The notes under the pieces are model-generated. The model was not told the origin of the DNA, ran no database searches, and was given only the letters and a program-made list of their open reading frames with translations. DNA of 64,000 nt, from contig JAJYXM010000016.1 in assembly GCA_021796435.1 (NCBI GenBank), positions 1,184,625-1,248,624 on the forward strand, read 5' to 3'. This document shows, in pieces, positions 12,157-42,243 of this stretch (within the stretch, counting starts at the first letter, position 1; each line of letters opens with the position of its first letter). Position numbers and translations under genes: made by a program. The DNA comes from a bacterium. GTDB taxonomy: Bacteria > Patescibacteriota > Patescibacteriia > 2-12-FULL-60-25.

Positions 12157-14034
12157 TCAAACCCTATTTATAACATTTACGACTCCTCTGTTTGCATCGA
12201 CTTCGACTTCATCGCCGTCGTGCAGGACCTTGGTGGCGATCTTGGTGCCGATGACGCAGGGTTTATTGAGCTCACGGGCGACAATCGCGGCATGCGAGGT
12301 TACGCCACCTTGGTTGGTCACATAGGCCGCGGCTTTCTTCATGGCAGGCAAGAGATCCGGCTGCGTACTGATAGACACAAGGATGTCGCCCTCCTCTACC
12401 TTTACCATATCTGCTGTCACATCGACGATCTTGACCCGGCCGTGAGCAACACCAGGACAACCGCACTGACCGTGGATCTCATCCACATCTTCTAGGCCTT
12501 CATCGCCGATCAGTTCAGCGATTCGTTGTGCCTGCGCTCCGGAATAGAATGTGTAGCCCTGTCCGTCGACGTAATAGACCGAGAAAGGCACGCGTTGTTT
12601 AATCTCATCAGCATCCCAGAAACCGTCCGCGAGTGCGCGACGGATCTCTTCAGTCGTCATGAACTTAGTCTGCTTGATCGTAAGACCTAAACGTTTTCCT
12701 ATCTCTTCAATCACCGCCACCATCCTATAAAGGGCATATATCTGGGCATATCTACGGTAGATCTTAGTGACCATGAACTCGCCCCAGGCCGCAAAAAATT
12801 GCTTCTGCTTCGGTGTGAGCGCTAGCTGTCGGATAAGTTCGTTCCGTTTCGCTAAAGCGGCAGCCGTGTCAGCCCTATCCTTCTCCAGTGTTTTGCGTAT
12901 ATCCGCATCCCCATTCACTAACCTGACGAGCGCCTTAAGATAATGTTCGAAACTATAGACGCCCTGCTCTTCAGTGAAAAGAAACTTACCGTAGTAGTAT
13001 TTAGCATAATGGTCTTGCAGATCCTTCTTGATGTCGGGGCGAATGCTACCAATGAGATGGCTGACGTACTGTTCAAATCGTTCTTCATGTTGTGCGTTGT
13101 GTTCATACAGACCGAACATCTTCAGCTCTTCCTCCCTGAACTTACTGAAAAGGTCCTTAAAGACCGCAAGCTGTTGCGGATCCTGTTGAACCTTTATGCC
13201 AATCTCAGAAAATTCGTCTTGTTCTATCTTGATCATAGAAGGACGTGAGGGCTGGTTCAGGATAGTCAGATATTCGTTGATCTTTTCTTCTGGTACTCCG
13301 ATGCTGGTAAGAATCTTCTTACCCCGGTCGGTCAGGTTGTTGGACAGCATATCCGCGGCCTGAGGTATCCAGCACCAACTATAGAATTCGCTATGGATCT
13401 TCTCATGGTCGCGATAAAACCCCCAAAGCTTCTTATTACTTGTTTTGTCCAATCGATCTTCCGGCAACTTGTCGGCGAATGACCTCAGCTCATCCGCGAT
13501 ACGCACGATGTTGTGGTTGACCTCATCCATGAAAGCAGGGTCAGACTCCATGCGGTCTACCAGGTGTTTGCCGACCTCAAAAGCGTCCTGCTCACCAAAA
13601 TAGAACCAGACATGGTATTCACGAAAAATAGCCATGACCTTCTTATATGCCCGGCCACTAGTCTTACCGAATTCCTTGACGAAGGAATCCAGACCGATCT
13701 TGTTGAAAAAGGGGCACATGTTAGGGATGTCCTCGGCGAGTATCCAGTCTACAGTGAAACGTTTTTCAAAGTCTGCGGATTCAACAACGGAAAACAGCTC
13801 CACCAATTTCTTGGCTACCGGATTGGCATGATCAAGAGCATATTCCTTATTTCCCCTGTCCTGACTGATACGGACCAGCCCTTCTGCGCGTAGCTTAGAC
13901 AATTCACGTAAGACGTTGGCCGGATCCTTGTGGATGGCCTTAGCCAGTTCACTCAACGAAAAAGCATACCCCACCCTGGAGCCAAGAAGTGCTAGAAGTT
14001 CGTAAGAAGTAGCCGATTTAAATAATGCTTTCAT
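12157..14034 (-). CDS. Winged-helix protein fused to helical region and PEP-utiliser swivelling His domain
   Basis: 625 residues. Residues about 1-80 form a winged-helix DNA-binding domain (FSLSELAKAIHKDPANVLR, then LRAEGLVRIS). A long helical region follows; its last part (residues about 410-500) resembles the helical linker of rifampin phosphotransferase and PEP-synthase relatives (IGKRLGLT, MTTEEIRRAL). Residues about 520-620 are a PEP-utiliser mobile domain with GGVTSHAAIVARELN; His581 is the expected phosphorylated residue. No ATP-grasp or TIM-barrel domain. A palindrome sits against its ATG. I infer a phosphohistidine-controlled regulator, but an enzyme with a DNA-binding appendix is also possible. 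Confidence 0.82.
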   Translation of the reverse strand: MKALFKSATSYELLALLGSRVGYAFSLSELAKAIHKDPANVLRELSKLRAEGLVRISQDRGNKEYALDHANPVAKKLVELFSVVESADFEKRFTVDWILAEDIPNMCPFFNKIGLDSFVKEFGKTSGRAYKKVMAIFREYHVWFYFGEQDAFEVGKHLVDRMESDPAFMDEVNHNIVRIADELRSFADKLPEDRLDKTSNKKLWGFYRDHEKIHSEFYSWCWIPQAADMLSNNLTDRGKKILTSIGVPEEKINEYLTILNQPSRPSMIKIEQDEFSEIGIKVQQDPQQLAVFKDLFSKFREEELKMFGLYEHNAQHEERFEQYVSHLIGSIRPDIKKDLQDHYAKYYYGKFLFTEEQGVYSFEHYLKALVRLVNGDADIRKTLEKDRADTAAALAKRNELIRQLALTPKQKQFFAAWGEFMVTKIYRRYAQIYALYRMVAVIEEIGKRLGLTIKQTKFMTTEEIRRALADGFWDADEIKQRVPFSVYYVDGQGYTFYSGAQAQRIAELIGDEGLEDVDEIHGQCGCPGVAHGRVKIVDVTADMVKVEEGDILVSISTQPDLLPAMKKAAAYVTNQGGVTSHAAIVARELNKPCVIGTKIATKVLHDGDEVEVDANRGVVNVINRV

Positions 14035-14092
14035 ATTGTCTATCAGACAATTTTATTTTGTTTACTTTACTAAAAAAAACTTCGTTTGTCAA
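14035..14092 (-). promoter_or_regulatory. Promoter and candidate operator of the winged-helix/His-domain gene
   Basis: Minus strand TTGACA (14087-14092), 17-nt spacer, TAAAGT (14064-14069). Directly before the ATG is the palindrome ATTGTC-5 nt-GACAAT (14035-14051). A palindrome at this position suits autorepression by the encoded winged-helix protein; that is inference. Confidence 0.6.
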
Positions 14093-14123
14093 ATATATAA
14101 TGATTTATTGGCAATAATACCTA

Positions 14124-14152
14124 TTGACAGGAAAGCATATTCGTGATATATT
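14124..14152 (+). promoter_or_regulatory. Promoter of the first SixA-like gene
   Basis: TTGACA, 17-nt spacer, TATATT. The downstream leader of about 60 nt is related to the leader of the second SixA-like gene: both contain AGATTCGCT and AGACATCGGTCATT at the same distance from the start codon. Confidence 0.7.
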
Positions 14153-14218
14153 AATATGTTTAAAGCTGGTAGATTCGCTGCTAGCTGGAGACATCGGTCA
14201 TTCACAGGGAGCGTTGAA

Positions 14219-14741
14219 ATGCGCATCGAATTGCGTCGTCATTCAATCAAGGGCGTCGGAGACCAGAAAGATGTTCTCTCTGGAGGGGATCAAGCTGGCG
14301 CGGAACGTCGGAGCCGAACAGATGAGCGGCAAGAACTACACACACGTCCTCACTTCCACATTCTTCCGCACCATGCAGACCGCGTGCGCCTTCGCTGAGG
14401 GCGCAGGTGACTTCACGGTTGCGCGCTTCGATACCTCGGAGGCGCTCAACAGCGAGGAGATGAAGGAATGGGGCGCGTACATCAAACTGCACGGAGCAAG
14501 GCTCGTGCAATCCGAGGACTTGATTGTCGAGGAGTCCGGGAGGATGGCGGACGGATTCCAGGCACTCTGCTCACGCCTCCCGGAAAACGCCCGCATGCTC
14601 GCAGTCGGCCACGCTCCGCTGCTGGAGTGTCTCGTCTTCGGCCTGACCGGCGCCGTGATTGATCCTTTGCACGAATGCGAGGGCGTGATCCTCGACTACG
14701 ACGGCAGCAAGTTTGTCCTCGTCGAAGAGATTCGCCTCTAG
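14219..14741 (+). pseudogene. SixA-like histidine phosphatase, frameshifted copy
   Basis: The start codon and RIELRRHSIKG active-site motif lie in one frame; from about 14280 homology continues in another frame (LEGIKLARNVGAEQM to the end). Compared with the intact copy near 21.1 kb, 2 nt are missing where that copy reads CTCTCCCCC and this one CTCTCTG. Past the shift the protein is well preserved, including RTMQTACAFAEGAG and AVGHAPLLE, so the lesion is recent or a sequencing error. An internal ATG in the second frame would lack the catalytic RHS motif. Family activity: removal of phosphate from phosphohistidine proteins. Confidence 0.75.
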
Positions 14742-14765
14742 CTACCCAAGGCCACCTCAACACAC

Positions 14766-14796
14766 AAGCCCGCCAGCAATCCTCGCTGACGGGCTT
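14766..14796 (+). terminator. Terminator of the first SixA-like gene
   Basis: AAGCCCGCCAGC pairs with GCTGACGGGCTT around AATCCT with one mismatch. The equivalent hairpin at 21660-21690 pairs perfectly. Confidence 0.75.
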
Positions 14797-14811
14797 CGTC
14801 GTTTCGATTTT

Positions 14812-14874
14812 GTCATCCCGGACTTGATCCGGGATCTCAGGGCCTCTAGATCCCGGCTCGGTGGCCGGGATGAC
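14812..14874. repeat. Bipartite GTCAT...ATGAC palindromic element, copy A
   Basis: Two adjacent hairpins built on CCCGG/CCGGG stems, bounded by GTCATCCCGG and CCGGGATGAC, with a linker ending CTCTAG. Further copies lie at 21706-21768, 23039-23116 and 45360-45437. They look like dispersed non-coding palindromic repeats. Confidence 0.75.
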
Positions 14875-14980
14875 ATTTTCGGTTTACGCACGCTTGATGA
14901 CTTTTACCATTCCCCTATCCGCATCCATCCCGACGTGCGCCGGGATTTCCTCCGCAGTGCTGGAGTGCGCTCTATCTTTG

Positions 14981-16432
14981 TTAGTATTTTTTTCTTAGTA
15001 TCCTTACTATTCCCTTTTCGGCGTCAACTTCCACTTCATCTCCGTCGTGGAGGACGCTTGTCGCGACCCTAGTACCGATAATGCATGGCTTCTTGAGTTC
15101 GCGTGAAACAATGGCGGCATGGCAAGTGATACCACCTTCGTCGGTGATGATGGCGGAAGCTATCTTCATCAATGGCACGGATTCGGGACGGGTCATAGAG
15201 GTGACTAACACCTCACCGGCTTTGAAGGAGGCAAAATCCTTTTGGCTATAGATTACCCTGACTGGACCTATCACCTTTCCGGGACAAGCTACCTGACCCT
15301 CCAGCTCGGAGACGTCTTGTCCGCCCTGCGGCTTCAAAGCTACATCCATCCGGGCATCCGCCTGATCCGGACTCGTGTATTCGAAGTGAGCACCTTCAGC
15401 ATCGAAAAAGACCGCGCATTCCCTACGACGTTCGAGTTCCGCCTTGAAACCCGGCATGGCGTAGCCGCCGGCGGACCAATCACTATAGATGGTATAGGGA
15501 AAAAGGCTTTGTTCTATGCCGCGTTCCTTCAACACGGCCTTGCCGGTCATTGAGATCATGGTAAGGACCGGCTGCAGATAGGTTTTCCTGACATCGCGTA
15601 TCTCCATGGCCAATTGCGTGAAATCGAAGAGCTGGCGCAACGTCGGATCCAGATTTTCGGAAAATCCACGGACCTTGGCGCGGTTCCCCTCTATCTCGGA
15701 TTCGAGTTGGGCGATCTCCTTTTCGAGCCCAGCCGCCCCACCTTTAGAATCCAATTCGGCCCGCATCTTCGCCTCAGTCTCTTCGAGGCTCAAGGCGTCG
15801 AAGTAATCCGTATATAGCCAGGTCGTACGGGAAACGTCTTGGTCAACGGCAAAACGTGAGATGACCTTATCGGAACGCAGCGAGAAGGATTCGAAGGTCG
15901 GCAGTGACGCGAAAGCCAGAAAGTCGGAAAAGTTTTCTTGCGTACCGCCCAATTCGAGATAAATATCATGCACAAGATCCTCATAGACGGCTTCGGAAAA
16001 CAAGGACGAAGAAAGCAGACGGCAGAATTCGTCGTAACGTTTTGCCAACATGCCGACAAGCTCTTTTTCATCGTAAGCCGATAAATCCATGGCAAGAAAT
16101 GATTCGAATGAAGCGGCTATCTCGGCGCAAGTAGCACGAAAATCCCTGACTTCCGGCAAATCATCGAGGGATACACCGGGCGCCAAACGCTTGAAGGTCG
16201 TACGAGTGGTTCGCTTATAAGATTCGAGATTGAAGAAAAGTTTGCCGTGGTGCGGTCTGACGAGGAAAAGGAAGCTGCCGAAATCGAAACCGTAATAACG
16301 CGTGAAGTATGGAGCGTAACACTCGGGCAGCAGGCTCATATACAAAGCCAACGAGAAATTTCCTTCCTGCTTTGTGATATCTTCAGGTCTTATATCTGAA
16401 AGGTAGCGTTCGACGTTATTCATGAGATTCAA
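14981..16432 (-). CDS. PEP-utiliser swivelling His-domain protein (483 residues, distal gene of operon)
   Basis: The first ~330 residues are helical and unassigned (with a coiled-coil-like stretch LEKEIAQLESEIEGN). A helix block IRDVRKTYLQPVLTMISMTG resembles the middle domain of rifampin-phosphotransferase-like proteins. The C-terminal ~100 residues are the mobile domain with VACPGKVIGPVRV and GGITCHAAIVSRELK; His438 is the expected phospho-acceptor. No ATP-grasp or PEP-binding domain. The start overlaps the upstream HD gene by 17 bp. The last 46 codons lie within the 362-bp repeat and encode the same residues as the 368-residue paralogue. Confidence 0.85.
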   Translation of the reverse strand: MNLMNNVERYLSDIRPEDITKQEGNFSLALYMSLLPECYAPYFTRYYGFDFGSFLFLVRPHHGKLFFNLESYKRTTRTTFKRLAPGVSLDDLPEVRDFRATCAEIAASFESFLAMDLSAYDEKELVGMLAKRYDEFCRLLSSSLFSEAVYEDLVHDIYLELGGTQENFSDFLAFASLPTFESFSLRSDKVISRFAVDQDVSRTTWLYTDYFDALSLEETEAKMRAELDSKGGAAGLEKEIAQLESEIEGNRAKVRGFSENLDPTLRQLFDFTQLAMEIRDVRKTYLQPVLTMISMTGKAVLKERGIEQSLFPYTIYSDWSAGGYAMPGFKAELERRRECAVFFDAEGAHFEYTSPDQADARMDVALKPQGGQDVSELEGQVACPGKVIGPVRVIYSQKDFASFKAGEVLVTSMTRPESVPLMKIASAIITDEGGITCHAAIVSRELKKPCIIGTRVATSVLHDGDEVEVDAEKGIVRILRKKY

Positions 16433-17048
16433 TATTTTCTAACTTTTGCAGCTCCTCTTGGGCTAATCGACGAAATTCCGGATAAAAGAAGTCATCCAGC
16501 ATCTTGCGTAGTTCATTAAGCATCTGTTCTCGGCCATAATATCCTCCAGCGACCATCTTGCTCAAACGCCTTTCGTTATAGCGATCCAAGGAATCCAGAT
16601 CGTGGAAGACCTGCTTATTCGAAGTATCATACAATGATCGCCAGTCGTCTAATCCGGTCAGCTGATCAGCATCATGCATGGATATGATCTCTACGATCTC
16701 AGAAGACTTATCTGAAGGATATCCCACGGCCGACAGGATATCGCGAGCGATCTTTGCGCCTGCCAACATGTGCACCAATTTTCCGTTCCGTACCTTCTGT
16801 GAGCCCGTGACATACTTGAAATGCTCCGGCAGGATCGCGGAATGTCCGATGTCGTGGAGCATGGCAACTGGGATCAAGACGTCCGGATCGAACGGTACGA
16901 TGTCGGCGAAGCGCAACACGTTTGCGACTGTCTCAGCCGCGTGCTCATCGTCGCCTGGCCGACCCTGTTTCAGCAACGGAAGGCTAGCCTCCCAGATAGG
17001 CTTATACTTATCCGGGATATCGATCGTATTACCTTGGAGTTGCGACAT
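16416..17048 (-). CDS. HD-domain phosphohydrolase
   Basis: 210 residues. The HD signature is complete: His36 in DDEHAAE, His65-Asp66 in AMLHDIGHSA, further His residues in KLVHMLAGA and ISMHDADQL, and a terminal Asp in FHDLDSLDRYN. Such domains bind two metals and hydrolyse phosphate esters, often nucleotides. It lies inside an operon of three His-domain proteins, overlapping the downstream one and starting 5 nt after the upstream one, so its substrate is probably tied to that pathway. No signal or membrane segments. Confidence 0.88.
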   Translation of the reverse strand: MSQLQGNTIDIPDKYKPIWEASLPLLKQGRPGDDEHAAETVANVLRFADIVPFDPDVLIPVAMLHDIGHSAILPEHFKYVTGSQKVRNGKLVHMLAGAKIARDILSAVGYPSDKSSEIVEIISMHDADQLTGLDDWRSLYDTSNKQVFHDLDSLDRYNERRLSKMVAGGYYGREQMLNELRKMLDDFFYPEFRRLAQEELQKLENIESHE

Positions 17049-17052
17049 AACG

Positions 17053-18504
17053 TTATAGTTTTATGACAGTACCATGGTTAGCATTAACCTCGACTTGGTC
17101 GCCATCCTTAAGCATCTTGGTCGCGACCTGCGTGCCGATGATGCACGGAATACCGAGTTCGCGCGCGACGATCGCGGCGTGGCAGGTGATGCCGCCTTCA
17201 TCAGTCACGATGCCGGCGGCGAGTTTCATGATCGGCAGATATTCGGGACGCGTCATGGCCGCGACAAGGATGTCGTCTTTCTGCATCTTACCGAAATCAT
17301 CCTGTCCTAAGATGACCTTAGCGACACCCAAGGCCTTGCCGGGTTGCGCGATGTTGCCGCGGATCTCGGATTTTTCGAGGCTTTTCTCGAACTTATCATA
17401 GATTTTCCTGACCTGTTCCCCCGTGTCGAACGGCAAATCGCCGTTTTCGGAATAACAAAGGCAACCATAGCGCTCTCGCTCCTCCAGCACAGCGACCATC
17501 TCGGGTTCAGCCAGCAGACGAGGCAATTCATAAACGTTCGCCCAGAGGATTATCTTGAGGTCCTTACCCAGGATCTCGGCCAGCCTCTCGGCGACGACGA
17601 ATAGATAATAGCTGCTGATGCAGTTATATTTCTTCCGGTCGTCGCGCAAGTTAGTGAAGAGGCTCATGAGATCAAGTTGCGTCTTGGTTTGCTGGTCTAG
17701 CTCGAGACGGTCGATGAGTTCGGCCTTGGCGTCAGCCACCTGCTTCATCTTGGAGATCAGGGCTTGCGCCTCTTCGGAGAGGACCGGATTAGATAACCAC
17801 GTATCGAGCACGCCGCGGAAATACGAGACGTCGAGGAAATCGACCTTCTCATAATCATTCTTGATCCAGTGATAAGCCGCGGAGTGCTGCACCAAAAGAC
17901 GCTCGACTTCCGCATCGTCTCGACCTCTGGCCTTAGCCAACTCGAAGATCTTAAGCATGTCGGCCTGTTCCTTCTGCAGATTGGACGGCTCGTCAGGGCT
18001 CAAAAGCATGTTTATCTCCTTCTTGCCCAGCGCTGACCCGTGCTCGCCGAAGATGCGCCTGATGGCCATCTCCTCGAAAGGATCCAGCAGGTCGACGAAA
18101 AGCGAGTTCTCCCAAAAACGATGGCAGCCTTCGATGAAATTGTCGTAAGCCGACCTGAAACCTGGGTCGTGGATGGAAATCGCCTTGAGCCTCTCCCCGG
18201 CCGCGATCGTGTCGGAGCCGCCGGCGGAAAATCTTTGGGCCAGCGTACGGAACTTCTCCGGGTCGTGTCTCATGGCATCCAAAATCTTCTCCGCCTCTTC
18301 TATGTTCTTGTCGTAATCGATGAAGTGACCCATCACGTTGCGGCCGTTCTCTTTCACGACGATGAAGACATCATTGGGAAAGACGAAGCCGGAGGCTTTT
18401 TTCATGCGTTGCTGGATAGAGACCCAGGGCATGGAGAGATACAACAGGCTGGCGGCGCATGACTGCTTGTACCAAGTGATGTCAGGAGGGTTGTACATAA
18501 TCAA
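17053..18504 (-). CDS. PEP-utiliser swivelling His-domain protein (483 residues, second gene of operon)
   Basis: A helical N-terminal region of about 240 residues is followed by a block resembling the linker domain of rifampin phosphotransferase relatives (LTNLRDD-like region, FVVAERLAEILGK, NVYELPRLLAE at about 270-330). The mobile domain occupies about residues 375-483 with IAQPGKALGVAKVI and GGITCHAAIVARELG; His442 is the predicted phosphorylated residue. No nucleotide-binding domain is present, so phosphate must come from another protein, plausibly the separate ATP-grasp protein at 24.3-25.2 kb. It shares only its architecture with its operon neighbours in the N-terminal half. Confidence 0.85.
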   Translation of the reverse strand: MIMYNPPDITWYKQSCAASLLYLSMPWVSIQQRMKKASGFVFPNDVFIVVKENGRNVMGHFIDYDKNIEEAEKILDAMRHDPEKFRTLAQRFSAGGSDTIAAGERLKAISIHDPGFRSAYDNFIEGCHRFWENSLFVDLLDPFEEMAIRRIFGEHGSALGKKEINMLLSPDEPSNLQKEQADMLKIFELAKARGRDDAEVERLLVQHSAAYHWIKNDYEKVDFLDVSYFRGVLDTWLSNPVLSEEAQALISKMKQVADAKAELIDRLELDQQTKTQLDLMSLFTNLRDDRKKYNCISSYYLFVVAERLAEILGKDLKIILWANVYELPRLLAEPEMVAVLEERERYGCLCYSENGDLPFDTGEQVRKIYDKFEKSLEKSEIRGNIAQPGKALGVAKVILGQDDFGKMQKDDILVAAMTRPEYLPIMKLAAGIVTDEGGITCHAAIVARELGIPCIIGTQVATKMLKDGDQVEVNANHGTVIKL

Positions 18505-18513
18505 ATCAAATAA

Positions 18514-20049
18514 TTAATCTTTCAGTTTCTTCACGATACCGAGATCGGCATCGACCTCGACCTTATCGCCATCCTTAAACGTTCGGGTCGCGAATTTAGT
18601 GCCGACGACGCATGGCTTACGAAGTTCACGCGCCACGATCGCGGCGTGCGAAGTGATGCCTCCCGTATCGGTCACGAATGCCGCAGCACGCTTCATGGCG
18701 ACGATCAGATCAGGATTAGTGGCAGGCGAGACAAGGATATCACCAGCTTCCAACTTATCGATATCGGCTACGGAGGCAATTATCTTAACGGTGCCGATAG
18801 CCTTTCCGGCAAAAGCAGTTGAACCCTTGAGTTCTCCAAACCCGTCTTGCGGCAAACTTTCCAGGCTTTCCAGACTCCCGATCTTTTCCTTGATTTTGCG
18901 ACCGCACTCTTCACCTGAAAAAATTCTCATGTTCCCGTCGCGGATGCTCATGCAGCTCAGCTCGGTCCGCGCCTTCACTTCTTGGTGAACATCAAAATCA
19001 ACCCTTCCCGAGAGGCACGCTTCAACCTCCTCGAAGGTAAGGAATTTAGATTCCGGTAGCGATATCCCGAGCCGCTTGGCGATTTCAGCCAGGACGTTGT
19101 CCATGGCCAAGTAAGACCTTTGATACACTCCCTTCCGGAAATCCTTGAGTCGCATAAGCGCAGCAGACGCCTCAAGCAATTTGACGAGATCTGCCGGTGG
19201 ATCGAGCTCCTTAAGCAACGCAGATTTGCGGGTGCGCTGTTCATCCATGCCTTTGACCTTACGTTCAAGCTGCTCTTGCGGATCGCCATTCTCAAGATCG
19301 GCTTTCAGCACTTTGAGCAGATATCCGGCTTCCATCGCTGGTCCAGCATAAGCGTAAGTCAACCAACCGAATTCTTGCAGGTGTTTTTCGATGGCATGTC
19401 GTGCATCAGGGAAGGCGGTCAGATTATCTCCTCGTTTGATCGCAGCTTCGATCTCGATCCCGGAAGGCATGGATAGAATCTCGCGCAACATCAACAATCG
19501 TGCCAGCTCCTCTTGCGCCACTTCGCTCGGTGAATCGCTCGAAGTCAGTAAGGAATAATAAGCAGGCGATTTTTCCGCTTGACCGCATGTAGCCAGGAAA
19601 GACCGGAGCTTCGCTTGGACCAAATCGGTCAGCCATGCCTTGTCCACCCCATCAAGGATCGGCGGAACCCATCCCCAAAGACGGAGCTCACGCGTCAACC
19701 TGATATATCGAGAGTAATAATCCTTGAGCTCGTCATTCTTCAGGAGACCGGCGTCAAGACGCCCCACTTCGCGGCTAAAGGCGTCCATGTCCGCGCTCTT
19801 CTCCTTAACCTCACGCTCGACCTGATCCATGAAGCCGTCTTCCGTCACGATCCTTTCCAGCAACTTTTCACCCATGCGTCCGAAGTCCTTAAGGTCATAG
19901 AAGGCGTACGCATGACTGCGCCTGAAAACCCAAAAACTTTCGGACATGTTCATGCCGGTCAGGTTTTCCATATCTTTCGTCAAGACGGAATCCGCCAAAC
20001 AAAAAGGATATGGGTACATCGGTTCCCGGTCGAATATCTTATCCAACAT
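18514..20049 (-). CDS. PEP-utiliser swivelling His-domain protein (511 residues, first gene of operon)
   Basis: First gene of a four-gene minus-strand operon, divergent from a TrmB regulator. The N-terminal half is helical and unassigned. Residues about 320-360 (NVLAEIAKRLGISLPESKFLTFEEVEACL) match the PEP-synthase-like linker seen in its paralogues. The mobile domain at about 405-511 has GITSHAAIVARELRKP, with His468 as acceptor. It reads PDLIVAMKRAAAFVTD before the motif, like the winged-helix paralogue. Function is inferred only from the domain: it should accept a phosphoryl group on His468 and pass it to a substrate bound by the N-terminal part. Confidence 0.85.
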   Translation of the reverse strand: MLDKIFDREPMYPYPFCLADSVLTKDMENLTGMNMSESFWVFRRSHAYAFYDLKDFGRMGEKLLERIVTEDGFMDQVEREVKEKSADMDAFSREVGRLDAGLLKNDELKDYYSRYIRLTRELRLWGWVPPILDGVDKAWLTDLVQAKLRSFLATCGQAEKSPAYYSLLTSSDSPSEVAQEELARLLMLREILSMPSGIEIEAAIKRGDNLTAFPDARHAIEKHLQEFGWLTYAYAGPAMEAGYLLKVLKADLENGDPQEQLERKVKGMDEQRTRKSALLKELDPPADLVKLLEASAALMRLKDFRKGVYQRSYLAMDNVLAEIAKRLGISLPESKFLTFEEVEACLSGRVDFDVHQEVKARTELSCMSIRDGNMRIFSGEECGRKIKEKIGSLESLESLPQDGFGELKGSTAFAGKAIGTVKIIASVADIDKLEAGDILVSPATNPDLIVAMKRAAAFVTDTGGITSHAAIVARELRKPCVVGTKFATRTFKDGDKVEVDADLGIVKKLKD

Positions 20050-20110
20050 CGTGTTATTTAGGTCGCTCAGTCCTTTCGTATTATTGGGCTTTGCGCTATC
20101 CTGTGTGGAG

Positions 20111-20139
20111 AAAATAGCAGAAAATCGCTAATTTTTCAA
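20111..20139 (-). promoter_or_regulatory. Promoter of the four-gene His-domain/HD operon with inverted repeat
   Basis: Minus strand TTGAAA (20134-20139), 17-nt spacer, TATTTT (20111-20116) with an extended TGC. The inverted repeat AAAATAGC/GCTAATTTT (20111-20118 and 20127-20135) covers the -10 box. It lies between the operon and the divergent TrmB gene, a good place for a TrmB operator. Confidence 0.55.
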
Positions 20140-20169
20140 CGGTCCTGTCGTCAAAAATAAACAACAATT

Positions 20170-20952
20170 ATGAATAAGAACGAGATCAAACATACGCTGA
20201 CTTACCTGGGACTAAAAGAGGATACGGCTGGCGCATATTTAGCCTGTCTCTCATTGGGCTCTGCTACGGCGAGCGATATAGCTAAGGCCGCTAAGTTGCC
20301 ACGGACAGTAGCTTATGGCCACTTGGATGAATTGGAGACGCGCGGTTTGGTCAGCGCTTCGATTTCCGGAGGTACCAAAAAATTCACGGCCAATGATCCC
20401 GACATCCTACTCAAGATAGCGGATCAACAGAAGGAAGAGCTGCAGTCTGCCCTGCCTGCCCTACTGGACATCTTCACCTCCTCCAGCTCCAACCGCCCTA
20501 AATTACGGTTCTATGCTGATCTCCTGGGCATCAAGACTTTCCACGAGAGTATCCTGGATAGTCAAGACAAGTTCTATCGGGTTATGGGTTCGATCAACGA
20601 CGAGGAGTTGCATAAGACAGTAGGCGTCAAATACGTCTTGGACTGGACGCAGCGTCGCATCGAACTGGGCATAGACCACAAGAGCCTGCGGCCGCTCTCG
20701 AGCAAACCGAAAGGTGATGCCAAAAAGAGCCTGCTGACCCAGTCGAACAGAGAGGTGTTGCGCGAGATCCGTTATGCGCCAGAAAGCATCAGACTGCCGA
20801 TATTGATATATCTGTTCGACAATAAGGCCGCTTTCGTGAGCGGCCGTGCCGGGAACCTATACGCCGCAGTCCTGGAATCAAAGGATGTCTTCGATTCACT
20901 GGTCAGCATCTTCGAAGCAATCTGGGCAATCTCAGAAAAGGTAGATAATTAA
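20170..20952 (+). CDS. TrmB-family transcriptional regulator
   Basis: 260 residues. The N-terminal winged helix (LKEDTAGAYLACLSLGSATA, then LPRTVAYGHLDELETRGLV) is followed by a short helical connector (IADQQKEELQSALPALLDIF) and the TrmB C-terminal sensor-like domain (LRFYADLLGIKTFHESIL). TrmB regulators bind sugars or related metabolites. It faces away from the four-gene His-domain operon and lies upstream of the intact SixA-like gene, so it is the natural local controller. Its terminator overlaps the promoter of the next gene. Confidence 0.88.
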   Translation: MNKNEIKHTLTYLGLKEDTAGAYLACLSLGSATASDIAKAAKLPRTVAYGHLDELETRGLVSASISGGTKKFTANDPDILLKIADQQKEELQSALPALLDIFTSSSSNRPKLRFYADLLGIKTFHESILDSQDKFYRVMGSINDEELHKTVGVKYVLDWTQRRIELGIDHKSLRPLSSKPKGDAKKSLLTQSNREVLREIRYAPESIRLPILIYLFDNKAAFVSGRAGNLYAAVLESKDVFDSLVSIFEAIWAISEKVDN

Positions 20953-21003
20953 GCGGTTTTCCAACCTCAAGATAGAACCCGGTGTTGTCATAAAAAGAAG
21001 ACA

Positions 21004-21030
21004 CGGCCCTTGACCAAAGAGCCGTTTTTT
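21004..21030 (+). terminator. Terminator of the TrmB gene
   Basis: CGGCCCT pairs with AGAGCCG (one mismatch) and is followed by six T residues. The loop contains the -35 box of the next gene's promoter, so the two signals are interleaved. Confidence 0.7.
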
Positions 21031-21038
21031 GATATATT
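21010..21038 (+). promoter_or_regulatory. Promoter of the intact SixA-like gene
   Basis: TTGACC, 17-nt spacer, TATATT. Same -10 and spacing as the first copy at 14124-14152, with a related 60-nt leader. Confidence 0.7.
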
Positions 21039-21104
21039 GCGGGGTCAAAAACTGGGAGATTCGCTTTCAGCCAAAGACATCGGTCATTTGCAAGGAGTAG
21101 CAGG

Positions 21105-21626
21105 ATGCTCATCGAGATTCGTAGGCATTCACTCAAGGGCAAGGACGAGAAGAAGAACGTGCTCTCCCCCGAGGGGATCGAGCTGGCGCGTCGCATCGGC
21201 GCCGAGGAGATGCGCGGCAAGAAGTTCACTTTCATCCTCACGTCCGGGTGCTTCCGGACGGCACAGACGGTCTGTGCGTTCGCTGAAGGCGCAGGCGACT
21301 TCACGGTTGCCCGCTTCAAGTCGTGCGACGCTCTCGACAGCCAGAGGATGAAGGAGTGGGGCGAGTACTACAAGCTCCACGACGCGAACCTGGTGTCGTG
21401 CCAGCTGGTCGACGAGGAAGCCCGCCGCATGGCCGACAAGTACCGGGAAGAGCTCAGAGAGCTTCCGAGTGACGCCCATGTGCTCGGCGCCGGTCACACT
21501 CCGTTCATCGAGTGCTCGGTCTTCGGGATGACCGGCACGATCATCCGCCCGCTCGGAGAGTGCGAGGGAGTGATCCTCGACTACGACGGCAGCAAGTTCG
21601 TCCTCGTCGAGGAGATCCGTCTCTAG
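21105..21626 (+). CDS. SixA-like histidine phosphatase family protein
   Basis: 173 residues. Branch-1 histidine phosphatase features: RRHS with catalytic His8, Arg51 in TSGCFRTAQT, and a second His131 in LGAGHTPFIE. Length and motifs fit SixA, which in Escherichia coli removes phosphate from phosphohistidine proteins. The ATG follows an AAGGAG ribosome site. Because the surrounding genes encode six proteins with a phosphorylatable His, I infer that this enzyme may dephosphorylate them. The C-terminal residues and downstream terminator are shared with the frameshifted copy. Confidence 0.88.
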   Translation: MLIEIRRHSLKGKDEKKNVLSPEGIELARRIGAEEMRGKKFTFILTSGCFRTAQTVCAFAEGAGDFTVARFKSCDALDSQRMKEWGEYYKLHDANLVSCQLVDEEARRMADKYREELRELPSDAHVLGAGHTPFIECSVFGMTGTIIRPLGECEGVILDYDGSKFVLVEEIRL

Positions 21627-21650
21627 CGCCCCTTCCAGATGAATCCCGCC

Positions 21651-22012
21651 TCAACATACAAGCCCGTCAGCAATCCTCGCTGACGGGCTTCGTCGTTTCG
21701 ATTTTGTCATCCCGGACTTGATCCGGGATCTCAGGGCCTCTAGATCCCGGCTCGGTGGCCGGGATGACATTTTCGGTTTACGCGCGCTTGATGACTTTTA
21801 CCATTCCCCTATCCGCATCCATCCCGACGTGCGCCGGGATTTCCTCCGCAGTGCTGGAGTGCGCTCTATCTTTGTTAGTATTTTTTTCTTAGTATCCTTA
21901 CTATTCCCTTTTCGGCGTCAACTTCCACTTCATCTCCGTCGTGGAGGACGCTTGTCGCGACCCTAGTACCGATAATGCATGGCTTCTTGAGTTCGCGTGA
22001 AACAATGGCGGC
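21651..22012. repeat. Long direct repeat, copy 2 (partner at 14757-15118)
   Basis: Holds the SixA-like terminator (21660-21690, perfect 12-bp stem), a GTCAT bipartite palindrome (21706-21768) and the 3' end of the 368-residue His-domain gene. About 99% identical to copy 1. Confidence 0.95.
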
Positions 22013-22981
22013 GTGCGAGAGGATGCTGCCGCGATCGGTGATGATAGCGCCAGCGTCTTTCATGAAAGGCAGATAGCGTACGTCGGTCATGTCGCAGACG
22101 AGAATGTCACCAGGAGTGAATTCAGCAGTTTCAGGCTCTAGCATGATGTGTACACGGCCAGAAGCATGACCCGGACAAGCGACCGCACCCCTGACGACGT
22201 CTGCAGCCTCTTCTGCGACACTAAGCTCGACGAACTCCGGCAGATATTTGGGAAGCAACCGGTTGTAGTCGATGATGTAAACCTTATTATCCGGCCAGAC
22301 AGTGGATTCGAAATAGCCTTTCAGATAACCGTGCGCGAATTCCGCATTCAATTCTTGACCGAGCTTGGCCTGCACGCTTTCGTCTTCCGTCTTGAGAAGC
22401 TCCAGCATACGCGAGACTTGCTGTGCCGCTTCCGTATCGACTTCGGGAGACCAGCGCCACTCGTCAAAATCCCAGGCGAATTGGTAAAGTTGATTTTCGG
22501 TATAACCATGCGTGAGTTGACTGTGCAGGCCGCGGACAATCTCGCCGTATACTCCCCTCTCGTTGACGACGAACGTCGCAGACCAGAGCAAGGTCTCGGA
22601 ATGAGGGCAGATGAACGCATCGTAATCGTCCGGATCGATCTGCTGTTTCAAGAACCAATTCTCGTAACAATCCTGGATAGTCAGGCCGCGTTGGCGGAGC
22701 TTAGGGAGTTCCGGCTTCTTCGGCACCAGACGGATGGCACAGAGTTCTTGACCGCGCTCATCGAGGATTGACTTAAAATTCGGAGCGAGATCGCTAAGAT
22801 CCCGAGCAGAGAGCTTTTCGGGACGTTCATACGGCACGCCCATGATCTGAAAGAGAATCTCGAGGCGCTTAGCCTTGCGGTTATCTTCCTCGCGGAAGGC
22901 GTTGGATTCTTCGGCTTGGCCTATTGCGGCCAGCCATTCAGTCATGGATATCTGATGCGAGGTAACGACGGGTTGGGACAT
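21875..22981 (-). CDS. PEP-utiliser swivelling His-domain protein (368 residues)
   Basis: The N-terminal ~250 residues differ from the other paralogues: IMGVPYERPEKLSARDLSDL, then SETLLWSATFVVNERGVYGEIVRG, which recalls part of an ATP-grasp-like fold but without a complete nucleotide site. The mobile domain is at about residues 260-368 with VACPGHASGRVHI and GSILSHAAIVSREL; His323 is retained although GGITC is replaced by GSILS. The last 46 codons are in the 362-bp repeat. It lies alone between two palindromic elements, convergent with the SixA-like gene. Confidence 0.82.
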   Translation of the reverse strand: MSQPVVTSHQISMTEWLAAIGQAEESNAFREEDNRKAKRLEILFQIMGVPYERPEKLSARDLSDLAPNFKSILDERGQELCAIRLVPKKPELPKLRQRGLTIQDCYENWFLKQQIDPDDYDAFICPHSETLLWSATFVVNERGVYGEIVRGLHSQLTHGYTENQLYQFAWDFDEWRWSPEVDTEAAQQVSRMLELLKTEDESVQAKLGQELNAEFAHGYLKGYFESTVWPDNKVYIIDYNRLLPKYLPEFVELSVAEEAADVVRGAVACPGHASGRVHIMLEPETAEFTPGDILVCDMTDVRYLPFMKDAGAIITDRGSILSHAAIVSRELKKPCIIGTRVATSVLHDGDEVEVDAEKGIVRILRKKY

Positions 22982-23038
22982 GGGAAAGTAAGTTAGAAGT
23001 AGATAGTAGGTGGGATGTAGAGGGTGGTTTAATTTAGT

Positions 23039-23116
23039 GTCATTCCCGTGAAGACGGGAATCCAGGCCCGGATTACTAGATCCCCGACGTCGGCGCCTGG
23101 CCTCCTCGGGGATGAC
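23039..23116. repeat. Bipartite GTCAT...ATGAC palindromic element, copy C
   Basis: Two hairpins, CCCGTGAAGACGGG and a CCCCGA...TCGGGG arm, bounded by GTCATTCCCG and CGGGGATGAC. The element at 45360-45437 is the same composite in the opposite orientation. Confidence 0.75.
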
Positions 23117-23145
23117 AAGCGGGGGTAAAATCTGTTAATTGATAC

Positions 23146-24294
23146 TTATCTCAGCTTATTTACGCTCCCCTCTTCCAGATCCAATTCAACCATATCTCCG
23201 TCGTTAAGGACAGACGTCGCATTTTTTGTCCCGACGATACACGGTATCTTCATCTCGCGTGAGAGTATGGCGGCGTGACAGGTGATGCCGCCTTCGTCCG
23301 TGATGATGGCTTTGACGTCTTTAAGATACGGGATGTAATGCGGGGTAGTCTGGATAGCGACAAGGATCTTGCCGGCTATGAGATCTTTTTTGGATTCGAG
23401 GTCTTCCTTGGACTCGATCACGACGACTTCGCCTTTGATCGATCCAGGTCCGACAAAAGCAGTTTGGCCTTTTAGCGTACCGTCCGTGGGCTGAGATACG
23501 GATTCCGGAGAGGAAAATTGCGCTTCGATCCGTGCAATCAGCTCCGCATCATCTATGACACGACGCTCATCATGCGAATCGTGATACACAAAACCTTGGC
23601 GCTGGCGCGTCCGGACCACGTCATCGACATAGCCGCCTACGCCATCAAGAAAAGACAGGACTTCAATCAACGAAAGATAGCGCATCAGATCCAAAGCCGA
23701 AGATTCGAGTCGCCTGCGCTCGGCCATGAAGACGAAGAAGTCGTACCACGATTCGCCCATGAGTTCCTCCTTAAGCGCGACCTGATTGCGCCATGCGTCA
23801 TGCTGGGCAAGGACTCCTTCGTACCGCGTGCTGCGTACCGCGTTCAGCTCGGTGAGCTTGAGGCCGAGGGAGAAGATGACGATGAATTGCGCGCCGGTCT
23901 CGGCGTAAGATGCAGAGACTTCCTTGTATGCTTCGATCGCCGCAGGTTCATCACCTGCTTTGACGGCGCGATCCAAGGCCTCACATTCACGTGCGATGCG
24001 GACCCAAAGTTTGTCGTTCTCCTTGATGCGGGCCGACAGGATGAACGGATCTTCCTTGACCTTGGCGAGGCTGACTTCATGGAACGCCTTGGCTTGCTCG
24101 ACGTTGATCACGCGGACGGGTTGGCCGTTCAGCGGCGCCAGCAGAGTCTCGGCGAAGTCCAGGCCGTGCATGTCTTTGACATGACGTCGCACACCTTCCT
24201 GTTTGCTGGAATAAAAAAGCAACGAAGCATCCGCGCGCACACCGAAGAACCATTTTTGCGATTTCAGGTATGCGAGAAGCTCGTCGGGGGTCAT
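23146..24294 (-). CDS. PEP-utiliser swivelling His-domain protein paired with ATP-grasp gene
   Basis: 382 residues. A helical N-terminal region (with MGESWYDFFVFMAERRRLESSA and RYLSLIEVL) precedes the mobile domain at about 275-382, which has TAFVGPGSIKGEVVV and GGITCHAAILSREM; His340 is the predicted acceptor. Its start overlaps the stop of the upstream ATP-grasp gene by 4 bp, so the two are translated together and probably form one two-chain enzyme. An in-frame CGTACCGCG-type tandem repeat near 23.82 kb encodes LNAVRSTRYEG, apparently a later insertion. Confidence 0.86.
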   Translation of the reverse strand: MTPDELLAYLKSQKWFFGVRADASLLFYSSKQEGVRRHVKDMHGLDFAETLLAPLNGQPVRVINVEQAKAFHEVSLAKVKEDPFILSARIKENDKLWVRIARECEALDRAVKAGDEPAAIEAYKEVSASYAETGAQFIVIFSLGLKLTELNAVRSTRYEGVLAQHDAWRNQVALKEELMGESWYDFFVFMAERRRLESSALDLMRYLSLIEVLSFLDGVGGYVDDVVRTRQRQGFVYHDSHDERRVIDDAELIARIEAQFSSPESVSQPTDGTLKGQTAFVGPGSIKGEVVVIESKEDLESKKDLIAGKILVAIQTTPHYIPYLKDVKAIITDEGGITCHAAILSREMKIPCIVGTKNATSVLNDGDMVELDLEEGSVNKLR

Positions 24295-25226
24295 AGCGTC
24301 GTTATCGGTCTGGATTGCACGACATAGAACTTACCGGCTTCCATGCCCCACTCGATGTCGCAGGGAAAGCCGTAATGCTTCTCGATGTCAGTGCAGATCT
24401 TGCCGAGCTCGTTGATCTGCTTACCGTCTATTTTCTGGCTGTCTTTCTTCTCGGCAGGGACAGGCACCTCTTCATTCCCCTGCCCGCTCTTGACCAGCAT
24501 GGTCTCCTGTTCGGAAACGTTGACGTCGATAAGCGAACCGTCGCGCTTGTCGATCACATAGGAATCCGGCGTGACACGACCACCGACGATGAATTCACCC
24601 AAACCCCAACACGCTTCGATGATCATCTGGTTCGGATCCTTGGTGACGGGATGGACCGTAAAGCTGATGCCGGCGACTTCGGACTGCACCATCTTCTGCA
24701 CGACTACGGCGACCGAGACGTGCGTCTTGAGCATGCCTTTTTCGTTGCGATAGACGATAGCGCGCGGCGTGAAGAGCGAAGCCCAGCAACGTTTGACGTT
24801 GTCGAGCAGCGTCGCTTCGGTCGTATTGAGATAGCTTTCGAGCTCGCCCGCCCAGCTCGCGATGGATGAGTCTTCGGCCGTCGCGGAGGAACGGACAGCC
24901 ACGAATTCCGCGTCCAATACTTTGAACGAATCAAGGATATCCTGCTCAAAGTCAATCGGCATCTTGGCGTCATGGATCAGGTCGTGGATGACGCGCGAGG
25001 CGCGCTCGACCGAGGAGACGTCTTCGTAATTCACCTTGTCGAGTTCGGCAGCGACTTCTTGGGATAGATCGGTCTCGGCCAAAAAACGGTCAAAGGCCGG
25101 AGCGAGCACGACAAAGCCAGGCGGGACAGGAATTCCGGCCTGCGTCATCTCGCCTAATGAGGCGCCTTTGCCGCCGGCGACATCTACGTTAGCTTTGGAT
25201 AATTCGCTGAATTTATTGATAAACAT
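24291..25226 (-). CDS. Stand-alone ATP-grasp (PPDK/PEP-synthase N-terminal) protein
   Basis: 311 residues, consisting only of the PEP-synthase/PPDK N-terminal domain. Key parts are present: VDVAGGKGASLGEM, IPVPPGFVV, the nucleotide-binding VRSSATAEDSS, SEVAGISFTVHP, and the closing VVQSRPITTL. Full PEP synthases continue into His and TIM-barrel domains; here the protein stops. The start is taken at MFINKFSEL, which aligns with family starts; the upstream MLIFLRH stretch does not. I infer that it uses ATP to phosphorylate the His of swivelling domains supplied by other proteins, first of all its 4-bp-overlapping partner. Confidence 0.9.
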   Translation of the reverse strand: MFINKFSELSKANVDVAGGKGASLGEMTQAGIPVPPGFVVLAPAFDRFLAETDLSQEVAAELDKVNYEDVSSVERASRVIHDLIHDAKMPIDFEQDILDSFKVLDAEFVAVRSSATAEDSSIASWAGELESYLNTTEATLLDNVKRCWASLFTPRAIVYRNEKGMLKTHVSVAVVVQKMVQSEVAGISFTVHPVTKDPNQMIIEACWGLGEFIVGGRVTPDSYVIDKRDGSLIDVNVSEQETMLVKSGQGNEEVPVPAEKKDSQKIDGKQINELGKICTDIEKHYGFPCDIEWGMEAGKFYVVQSRPITTL

Positions 25227-25292
25227 ATGACGCAGGAAGATTAGCAAGTATAGACCTGGGTGTCTATTGAGGATTTGTCATAAAAATGACAA

Positions 25293-25327: not shown

Positions 25328-25954
25328 TCAGTGCCGTGATGAAGGACCTTCTTCCGGGTCTTCAGGCAGTCCATCCAAGTCGTCGTTGAACGAGACCTCG
25401 ATTTCAGCGTCCGGCACCGGCGGGATAGGTGTCGGTCGGGTTTTAGCGACCAGGAGCGGAAGGTAGTTCCTCGGGACCGGCATCGTGTCATGCCTCCCAG
25501 CGGGCACTTGAGTCACACGTTCGGGCTGCCTTTCCATGGATGACCCGAGGTGCCTAGCGTACGGGAGCTTCGAGGTGGCGCGTTCCTCGTCATCGAAACC
25601 ATCGTCATCCGGCTCCACCAGAGTGAAGGGCTGGTCCCAGTCGGGACGCAGCGTCTTGGCTTCGCCGCGCACCAGCGACTCAAAGCCGTGCAGGCGGGAT
25701 GCCGGAATCGCGGCATAGAACTCCCGCAGCTTCTCCAGGTCGTGATTACGCTTCGCGTCGACCAGAAGCCGCACGTCTGGACCAGCATCCGGTGGAAGCT
25801 GCTGACAAGCACGAAGCGCCGCTTCGAGAAATTCTCTCTCCTCCTCAGAGAGGTCGAGATACTCCATACTTCTCAACCACGAGGGGCTAAGAATGTGCGC
25901 ATCCACGGCCAGATTCCAGGCCGCGGTCCAACGTGCAATCCTTGGATCGGGCAT
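25328..25954 (-). CDS. Hypothetical protein, 208 residues
   Basis: No family recognised. The ATG is chosen because AAAGGAG lies 6 nt upstream; a TTG two codons earlier would overlap that site. The N-terminal half is predicted helical (LSEEEREFLEAALRACQQLP), the C-terminal third is proline- and acid-rich and probably disordered. Not in an operon; it carries its own hairpin terminator and belongs to the orphan class with strong ribosome sites. Cytoplasmic by appearance. Confidence 0.6.
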   Translation of the reverse strand: MPDPRIARWTAAWNLAVDAHILSPSWLRSMEYLDLSEEEREFLEAALRACQQLPPDAGPDVRLLVDAKRNHDLEKLREFYAAIPASRLHGFESLVRGEAKTLRPDWDQPFTLVEPDDDGFDDEERATSKLPYARHLGSSMERQPERVTQVPAGRHDTMPVPRNYLPLLVAKTRPTPIPPVPDAEIEVSFNDDLDGLPEDPEEGPSSRH

Positions 25955-26068
25955 GGTCAACTCCTTTTACGCCGTGTGGGTGTACTCAAACGCAAAAGGA
26001 GCGAATTGTCAATCCTGTTTAGGTTAAAAGCGTATTATTTGACCAAAATTACAACACGTGGCAGCGGT

Positions 26069-26593
26069 ATGTGTATGGACGGATTACATCATCGCCACTC
26101 CATCCGTTTGCATGAATTCGACTATTCATTAGCGGGTGCATATTTTGTGACGATATGCACGCATAAAAGAGAGCGGCTGTTTGGAGACATCCAAGACGGG
26201 AACATGAAATTGAATGGGATTGGGCAAATTATCGATAATTGGTGGAACAAGATTTCCACGAAATATCGGGATGTACGCCTCGATGAATATCGCATCATGC
26301 CGAATCATTTCCATGGGATCGTTTGGATTTTGGATCATGTAGGGGCACCCCTTGTGGGTGCCCAAATAACCAGGGCAGGCACGAGGCCTGCCCCTACATT
26401 GGGTGAGATTGTCGGCGGTTTCAAATCTATTACGACGGTTGAATATATACGATCAGCAGTAGGAAATCCGTGGAAATTATGGCAGCGTAACTATTACGAA
26501 CACATAATCCGTAACGAAAACGAATTGTTCGCAATGCGAAAATATATCATAGAAAATCCATTGAAATGGAGACTGGATTCTGAGAATCGCTAG
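26069..26593 (+). CDS. REP-associated tyrosine transposase (RAYT, IS200-like)
   Basis: 174 residues. The HUH motif is in MPNHFHGIVWI, with the nucleophilic Tyr in RNYYEHIIRNENEL and the closing YIIENPLKW typical of RAYT proteins. The N-terminus HRHSIRLHEFDYSLAGAYFVT also fits. These enzymes cut and paste palindromic repeats. Between the HUH motif and LGEIVGGFKSIT the gene holds about 20 extra codons made entirely from a GTAGGGGC palindrome, in frame. The frame is open far upstream, but that part is antisense to another gene and has no ribosome site. Confidence 0.88.
   Translation: MCMDGLHHRHSIRLHEFDYSLAGAYFVTICTHKRERLFGDIQDGNMKLNGIGQIIDNWWNKISTKYRDVRLDEYRIMPNHFHGIVWILDHVGAPLVGAQITRAGTRPAPTLGEIVGGFKSITTVEYIRSAVGNPWKLWQRNYYEHIIRNENELFAMRKYIIENPLKWRLDSENR
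26339..26397. repeat. GTAGGGGC...GCCCCTAC palindromic repeat inside the RAYT gene
   Basis: 59 bp with outer arms GTAGGGGC/GCCCCTAC and two inner hairpins (GGGGCACCC stem; GGGCAGGC stem). Related 50-bp copies lie at 40089-40138 and 42279-42328, the only others seen here. Confidence 0.85.
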
Positions 26594-39790: not shown

Positions 39791-40052
39791 GAAGGGAAGG
39801 ATATGACATGCGCATTAAAACCGAAAGAGACGTGTGTGAGCCTGTCTATATTCTGTTGAATGATCTTCCAACGAAAAAATATAGCCTTCATCCGTTACTT
39901 TCATGACTGAAAGTAACCAAAGGTCCCGGGGGTCCATGATGCGCTCTCAAAGAAACAACTTCAGCCCTTTTACTTACACGCTTAGCATGTCCCCCCGGAC
40001 CCCCACGTCACTTACGAATCGTGACTCTCAGGCAACAACCGGAAGACTTCAC
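39791..40052. other. Intergenic region with palindromes, no gene seen
   Basis: Contains the palindrome GTTACTTTCA-TGA-CTGAAAGTAAC (39894-39917) and an inverted pair of GGGGGTCC/GGACCCCC arms (about 39930 and 40000). No credible ORF, tRNA or promoter found. Confidence 0.6.
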
Positions 40053-40053
40053 A

Positions 40054-40204
40054 CAAAACCCGCCGGGCGGCGGGCTTGTGCGATTTTTGTAGGGGCAGGC
40101 CTTGTGCCTGCCCGGGCACCCGCAAGGGGCGCCCCTACGATTTTCTAGATCATCAATGAGACCAAGAGCAACGCGACGATGTTCAGGATCTTGATCATGG
40201 GGTT
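40054..40204. repeat. 151-bp duplication of the hppA tail, truncated copy
   Basis: Nearly identical to 42244-42394: terminator hairpin CCCGCCG/CGGCGGG, a GTAGGGGC palindrome (40089-40138), then the last ~20 codons of hppA. Here the hppA part has no gene body; it joins the 3' end of the PRTase-like gene, whose last codons also resemble out-of-frame hppA sequence. Confidence 0.92.
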
Positions 40205-42033: not shown

Positions 42034-42243
42034 ACCGAAACTAAGTATACATCAGTTTCTAGTATTCAATAGAGACGGGAACTACCCCGTCTCTAATGCT
42101 TTTTTACTTGATTCTGGATTCCAGCCGGAGCCTACCTTGTCAAACGACGAGGAAAAAAGAGATTCCCCGGTTAAACCGTGGAATGACAAAAGAGGGGCCG
42201 TGACATGATAAAAGGAGACGAGGGATGGCATTGAAGATTACAC

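Follow-up and report, generated by a model that had tools for sequence, protein, structure and literature searches.

Relatively few phosphohistidine phosphatases have been established in vivo, as stated in the excerpt of PMC12934123. In E. coli, SixA removes the phosphate from the phosphohistidines of NPr, a protein of the PTS-Ntr, and of Ndk (excerpts of PMC7948535 and PMC12934123), so control of a phosphohistidine protein by a phosphatase has precedent; a further paper, PMC6282199, appears to deal with SixA control of such a protein. Some SixA homologues occur in genomes without phosphocarriers and, if they are phosphatases, must have other substrates (excerpt of PMC7948535). The second group of described systems is formed by phenylphosphate synthase and its aniline counterpart, phenylphosphoamidate synthase, in which a PEP-synthase-like phosphotransferase is split into separate subunits and a conserved His on one of them is phosphorylated (excerpt of PMC7500099).

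Here, we analysed a stretch of 64,000 nucleotides from a 1.63-Mb assembly of an uncultured patescibacterium (the window) and the relatives of its genes, and found that genes for histidine phosphatases recur in the neighbourhood of genes for PF00391 mobile (swivel) domain proteins. This recurrence is the main result. The features of the window on which the analysis is based are as follows.

12157-14034, minus strand: 625-aa protein, divergent from phosphatase copy 1, with a winged-HTH-like N-terminus (HVO_A0114, E 2.5e-4, below the cut-off of that family), a central region and a PF00391 mobile domain
14124-14152, plus strand: promoter-like TTGACA-17-TATATT of copy 1
14158-14218, plus strand: copy 1 leader, with the equivalent hairpin (14166-14172/14178-14184) carrying G-U and U-G changes
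14219-14741, plus strand: second phosphatase copy (copy 1), frameshifted near its start (about 14280)
14981-16432, minus strand: PF00391 mobile-domain protein, convergent with copy 1
16416-17048, minus strand: HD-domain protein (PF01966)
17053-18504, minus strand: PF00391 mobile-domain protein
18514-20049, minus strand: PF00391 mobile-domain protein
20170-20952, plus strand: TrmB-type regulator, immediately upstream of the intact phosphatase gene
21010-21038, plus strand: promoter-like TTGACC-17-TATATT of the intact gene
21044-21104, plus strand: putative leader RNA of the intact gene, with an outer helix (21044-21046/21076-21078) and a hairpin (21052-21058/21064-21070), followed by the Shine-Dalgarno sequence AAGGAG
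21105-21626, plus strand: intact compact histidine phosphatase (branch 1) of SixA-like size, ORF of 173 aa, motif residues R7-H8, R51 and H131
21875-22981, minus strand: PF00391 mobile-domain protein, convergent with the intact phosphatase gene
23146-24294, minus strand: PF00391 mobile-domain protein
24291-25247, minus strand: stand-alone PPDK_N (ATP-grasp) protein of 318 aa (PPDK_N, E 4e-98), presumed kinase of the mobile domains

The region from 12157 to 25247 thus encodes six proteins with a C-terminal PF00391 domain (E 4.2e-23 to 1.4e-26), an HD protein, a TrmB-type protein and a stand-alone PPDK_N protein besides the phosphatase gene. Five of the six acceptors carry the catalytic His motif as GG(I/V)T(S/C)HAA, and the sixth (21875-22981) as GSILSHAA. 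PPDK_N, PF00391 and this GGxTSHAA-like motif are shared with PEP synthase, PPDK and rifampicin phosphotransferase. Unlike in those enzymes, the domains in the window are distributed over separate genes: PPDK_N stands alone in 24291-25247, as does PF00391 in 21875-22981 and 23146-24294, and the scan of ten window proteins reported no PEP-binding domain. The similarity of the mobile-domain proteins to PEP-synthase-type enzymes lies mainly in the mobile domain, extending somewhat upstream of it in 18514-20049. The split architecture has its precedent in the phenylphosphate and phenylphosphoamidate synthases, although there a small molecule is phosphorylated. In phenylphosphate synthase the other subunit is the ATP-binding one; the window differs in having one PPDK_N gene, several unlike swivel proteins (one of them HTH-like) and a linked phosphatase gene. 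The HD protein has a counterpart with 63% identity at L016:1428-2033, likewise situated within the mobile-domain cluster of its genome, and is a candidate for a further phosphohydrolase of the system. An anti-phage defence role was considered and dropped, since in the ten window proteins scanned the PADLOC matches (E up to 0.001) lay solely in the HTH parts of two regulators.

The ORF at 21105-21626 is real and unbroken, and the RH..R..H motifs of the histidine-phosphatase superfamily are in place. In the motif test for branch 1 (PF00300), the RH pair, the second Arg and the C-terminal His stand at homologous positions, which we take to be those of the catalytic residues of histidine phosphatases. 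An alignment of eight homologues has H8 in every row and R7, R51 and H131 each in seven of the eight. The Pfam His_Phos_1 model (PF00300) matched the protein at E 7.5e-4 with 19.6 bits, against a curated cut-off of 21.7 that homologues in three other genomes (G036, G038 and G062) exceed. The preliminary description had called the genes SixA-type. The protein resembles SixA in its RH..R..H motifs, its compact size (173 versus 161 aa) and the function proposed for it, dephosphorylation of a histidine in a protein, but the family models do not support SixA proper. NCBIfam gave no family at E 0.01, and an hhalign comparison with SixA of E. coli K-12 reached a probability of 2.8% (E 0.016), aligning the N-terminal motifs only. 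The best PDB match, an entry named SixA (4hbz), had E 0.0033 over the whole sequence and 0.78 for the best stretch alone, and two homologues matched GpmB weakly. A structure prediction from two sequences had a pLDDT of 42.9 and was not taken into a fold search. The protein is therefore not demonstrably a SixA by the family models, and membership is not claimed; its proposed substrate, a PEP-synthase-type swivel domain and not HPr or NPr, also sets it apart.

Close homologues of the phosphatase are rare, with 13 of 380 genomes of the class having one at E 1e-20 and 2 of 379 genomes in a sample of the phylum, both of its own genus. In six of the 13 the homologue lies within 5 kb of a mobile-domain gene (the window genome G000, G001, G016, G036, G038 and G062). 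These six are among the eight homologue genomes with any PF00391 match, which has a probability of about 5e-7 under random placement with genomes taken as independent. The partner and the orientation vary: in G001 and G016, as in the window, the homologue is convergent with a mobile-domain gene, the partners in G001 and G016 being different members of the core cluster, and in G036, G038 and G062 it is divergent from other mobile-domain genes. The remaining seven (G018, G035, G140, G242, G300, G344 and G372), part of which sit on short contigs, have no mobile-domain neighbour on the DNA examined; at E 1e-5 five of these genomes have no PF00391 match, G242 has one and G035 has six. The G035 homologue (L018:7620-8153), a possible pseudoenzyme, has lost R7, R51 and H131, and at least about 70 kb separate it from the mobile-domain genes listed on its contig. 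Conversely, G002 has the core mobile-domain cluster without the homologue, and G039 likewise combines a mobile-domain cluster with absence of this homologue, although a different histidine phosphatase lies inside that cluster. Of the refutation set out in the preliminary description (homologues in relatives without His-domain neighbours, together with unconserved leaders), only half applies: neighbourhood with PF00391 genes is recurrent but not universal, whereas the leader discussed below is conserved in G001 and G016.

Because proteins combining an HTH with a mobile domain were found next to the phosphatase gene, linkage was tested more broadly. We took 50 genomes that matched an HTH-mobile query, listed their PF00300 matches, counted PF00391 matches per genome and scanned the DNA around each PF00300 match with a mobile-domain profile built from the window proteins, taking 5 kb or less as near. 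The sampled genomes are rich in mobile-domain genes (1 to 40 PF00391 matches per genome) since they were chosen by a mobile-domain query, and the expectations given here come from each genome's own PF00391 count. The list of 75 rows became 73 when the second pieces of split matches in G121:C18 and G039:C1 were merged. Divergent PF00300 members (E above 1e-15) were separated from canonical ones at E 1e-15, a value set after viewing the list, which has a gap from 3.8e-18 to 1.3e-11.

Of the divergent members, 24 of 32 were near a mobile-domain gene, where at most about 4.5 were expected (Poisson-binomial P 6e-16), versus two of 41 canonical members with at most about 5.5 expected (Fisher P 2e-10 between the classes); these P values assume independence, and the genomes share ancestry. 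Four of the 24 are seed loci (G000 through frameshifted copy 1, G036, G038 and G062), and with the four seed genomes removed the count was 20 of 28 (expectation 4.15, P 2e-12; Fisher 4e-9 against the canonical members). Moving the split to 1e-9 gave 23/29 versus 3/44, and with no split at all 26 of 73 were near (at most 10.1 expected, P 8e-7), or 22 of 69 when the four seed rows were taken out (9.7 expected, P 7e-5). The 24 near matches come from 21 genomes, 18 genera and 14 families. Seventeen lie within 250 bp of a mobile-domain gene, and in seven cases the two genes share a strand and are 0-64 bp apart. Among the 32, one (G131) has an internal stop and no ORF, and the window is represented by copy 1, as the intact gene did not reach the listing threshold of E 0.001. 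Six of the eight weak matches that were not near are on short or end-cut contigs (L076, L077, L079 twice, L084 and L085). Of the two near canonical phosphatases, that of G384 is separated by 2 bp from a mobile-domain ORF of 495 aa, and that of G380 adjoins one of 826 aa. A PPDK_N match was also present in one of the near mobile-domain proteins. Fourteen phosphatases of about 300 aa were aligned, 12 near and two not. All match His_Phos_1 at E 0.01 with an invariant RH pair and second Arg, and the C-terminal His is present by eye in 12. The nearest PDB relatives of this class are phosphatases and phosphoglycerate mutases.

The anatomy of these loci includes compact operons. In G247 (L078), PPDK_N (313 aa), phosphatase (294 aa) and a mobile-domain protein (505 aa) follow each other on one strand with gaps of about 20 bp, and in G339 (L074) the phosphatase gene precedes PPDK_N by 8 bp. 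A stand-alone PPDK_N gene was present on the stretch examined in nine of the 24 linked rows, the window included and G339 counted twice. Two loci of G072 have a free-standing swivel domain of 109-111 aa near the phosphatase (L093:7013-7342 and L083:6459-6794), the 109-aa one in L093 being 2 bp from the phosphatase gene. By analogy, these domains are possible phosphocarriers, HPr-like in role. In four loci (window copy 1, G036, G038 and G380) the phosphatase gene is divergent from a gene for an HTH or HTH-like protein with a mobile domain. The HTH part is winged-HTH-like in the window, by a sub-threshold Pfam match, and HTH_26 in the other three. G380 has a full PF00391 match, while the mobile domain is degenerate in the G036 and G038 fusions; that of G036 has lost the His motif and is silent in Pfam, being recognised by the window profile at E 1.5e-12. 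The G380 phosphatase at L072, found by neighbourhood and lying outside the 32 divergent matches, is a weaker PF00300 member (E 0.0036, under the cut-off score). In the same locus, a 1030-aa protein (L072:2549-5641) with PPDK_N and two mobile-domain stretches adjoins the HTH-mobile protein and the histidine phosphatase.

The gene content, the catalytic motifs, the recurrent linkage and the operons of kinase, phosphatase and acceptor genes in relatives are observed. On these grounds, the phosphatase and the mobile-domain genes probably form one system for phosphate signalling or phosphate transfer, and its best reading is a dedicated phosphohistidine phosphatase serving a split PEP-synthase-like phosphorelay. 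We infer the enzymatic steps, the substrate and the direction of signalling as follows. The stand-alone PPDK_N protein (24291-25247) would phosphorylate, at the expense of ATP, several acceptors on their swivel-domain histidines, the N-terminal regions of these acceptors being different; the HTH-like acceptor (12157-14034) could read out its own phosphorylation state as transcription; and the phosphatase would reset or limit the pool of phosphorylated acceptors. Such a system would work like the PTS-Ntr (EI-NPr-EIIA with SixA), with a kinase, a His carrier, an output protein and a His phosphatase, although the kinase and the carrier are from different families. That mobile domains are the substrates had been suggested in the preliminary description. 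The linkage (6/13 and 24/32, or 20/28 without seeds, versus 2/41 for canonical members) gives this strong genomic support, but seven of 13 homologues are without such a neighbour, five of them in genomes without a PF00391 match (E 1e-5). On balance, we consider it slightly favoured that the 21105-21626 phosphatase dephosphorylates the phosphohistidine of the neighbouring swivel-domain proteins. More tentatively, and with clear doubt, Patescibacteria may possess a phosphohistidine signalling unrelated to two-component systems and the PTS, in which one ATP-grasp kinase serves swivel acceptors, some of them DNA-binding, and a dedicated SixA-divergent phosphatase family is the off-switch.

In the main rival reading, the mobile-domain proteins would be phosphotransferases for small molecules, like phenylphosphate synthase or rifampicin phosphotransferase, and the phosphatase would hydrolyse their phosphorylated product or a related metabolite and not phosphohistidine. 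Many small molecules are substrates of histidine phosphatases. There is precedent for split PEP-synthase-like enzymes whose phosphorylated product is a small molecule (excerpt of PMC7500099), and it is mainly in the mobile domain that the mobile-domain proteins of the window match such enzymes. The weak GpmB matches and the PDB neighbours of the 300-aa phosphatases, mutases among them, count in the same direction. However, fusions of an HTH to a mobile domain and a free-standing swivel domain beside a phosphatase fit a carrier or signalling role better, as do several unlike acceptors with one kinase gene in the window, and we regard the small-molecule reading as rather unlikely. Both kinds of genes could also be accessory genes that gather in the same variable regions, their linkage having no functional meaning. 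The five homologue genomes without a PF00391 match agree with this, as does a window cluster that has duplications and a frameshifted copy. Yet linkage is not in excess for the canonical phosphatases of these genomes (2/41), and the linked genes are close together (within 250 bp in 17 of 24 cases, and 0-64 bp apart on one strand in seven), which makes an accidental gathering improbable. The pairing of phosphatase and swivel domain, its breadth in the class and the HTH-swivel partners appear to be new: among the literature matches listed, no paper linked both families in this way in its title or the opening of its abstract. With a phosphohistidine phosphatase as the preferred reading, the linkage points to a testable substrate class for such enzymes, and it offers a way into the function of the many mobile-domain matches in these genomes.

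Two phosphatase genes had been described in the window. Two copies do exist, but copy 1 is broken. A deficit of 2 nt relative to copy 2 (21105-21626) within the first 21 codons puts these codons, which include the catalytic RH, out of frame with the remainder. Past the frameshift, the 152 aligned codons contain no stop and the differences favour third positions (40/32/62 over the three codon positions), so the frameshift is either a recent event or an assembly error. The part of copy 1 past the shift is 58% identical in amino acids to the G001 homologue, versus 53% for copy 2. Both genes and their leaders are contained in one duplicated segment of about 1,040 bp (14144-15177 and 21030-22071, 79% identical overall), with near identity (58-60 of 60 per alignment line) in its 3' part, which comprises the intergenic region and the ends of the mobile-domain genes. 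The described convergence of each copy with a PF00391 gene on the minus strand was borne out (21105-21626 with 21875-22981, copy 1 with 14981-16432). Copy 1 is additionally divergent from the HTH-mobile gene 12157-14034, which had escaped the earlier account. REP-like short intergenic inverted repeats at 14811-14875 and 21705-21769 are near identical between the duplicated segments, and a further pair of this sort is found at 23038-23118 and 45438-45358. The ORF 25550-26593 contains a stretch that we take to be typical of REP-associated transposases.

Both copies have the promoter reported for them, TTGACC-17-TATATT for the intact gene and TTGACA-17-TATATT for copy 1, and promoters with a 17-nt spacer also precede the homologues in G001, G016 and G036. 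The similarity of the two leaders of about 60 nt is likewise real, but as one duplication spans both genes with their leaders, promoters and leaders amount to one observation and not two. Conservation of the leader is seen at four sites in three genomes (the two window copies, G001 and G016). It begins at the predicted transcription start, and all four sequences can form a hairpin of 7 bp with a loop of 5 nt, enclosed by an outer GUC/GAC helix; in G016, two of the seven pairs of the hairpin are broken. This makes the leader a structured and conserved 5' UTR, most likely an ordinary one that serves mRNA stability or translation.

The idea that the leader controls the phosphatase gene, whether as a regulatory RNA (riboswitch-like or protein-bound) or as a DNA operator, draws on this three-genome conservation, on its position at the predicted transcription start and on the pairing, which holds in 95% of the cells versus 42.5-47.5% when the alignment is slid, with three pairs changed on both sides. 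Against it, there are four sequences only, two of them paralogues, the covariation score is equalled by 10 of 500 shuffles, and the folding z-scores run from 0.18 to -2.24. Two Rfam matches were obtained in 13900-22100 at up to E 10, both outside the leaders. A covariance model searched against 33 sources recovered the four founders and one chance-level match (E 3.5), with none at the other homologues searched. When 41 genomes of the family were searched with stricter filters, the best outsider (E 7.8e-4, in G010) was a promoter with a different hairpin and a Shine-Dalgarno sequence before an apparently unrelated gene, and arrangements of this kind precede genes other than the phosphatase gene in G010 and G011. 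In a small sample of 12 promoter-like sites from seven sources, the mean z of hairpins behind the promoter was -0.49, so that hairpin leaders are no clear general rule there. A DNA operator is disfavoured further, since the inverted repeat depends on G-U pairs, which spoil the DNA palindrome, and an RNA hairpin is preferred. Regulation by the leader is thus an unlikely explanation. A coding reading was dropped: by eye, two other frames of the leader look conserved in part, but they have no start codon in common, and the window and L007 differ in the frame of the leader with respect to the gene.

Two operator candidates for the HTH-mobile regulators were also set aside. The perfect palindrome TTGTCTATCAGACAA (14036-14050) before the HTH-mobile gene has one site in the window, with a chance expectation of 1.94 at two or fewer mismatches. 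For the G036 and G038 regulators, the intergenic region of L019 has four TGACTA/TAGTCA half-sites (P 2e-4), and L016, counted over the exact interval tested, has one (P 0.087); as an operator this is suggestive in one genome only.

Elsewhere in the window, the 620-aa product of 30772-32634 joins a serine hydroxymethyltransferase domain to a class II aldolase/adducin domain, a fusion that is unusual to our knowledge. A direct repeat of 177 bp (40042-40218 and 42233-42408, 96% identical) lies at the ends of two long minus-strand ORFs.
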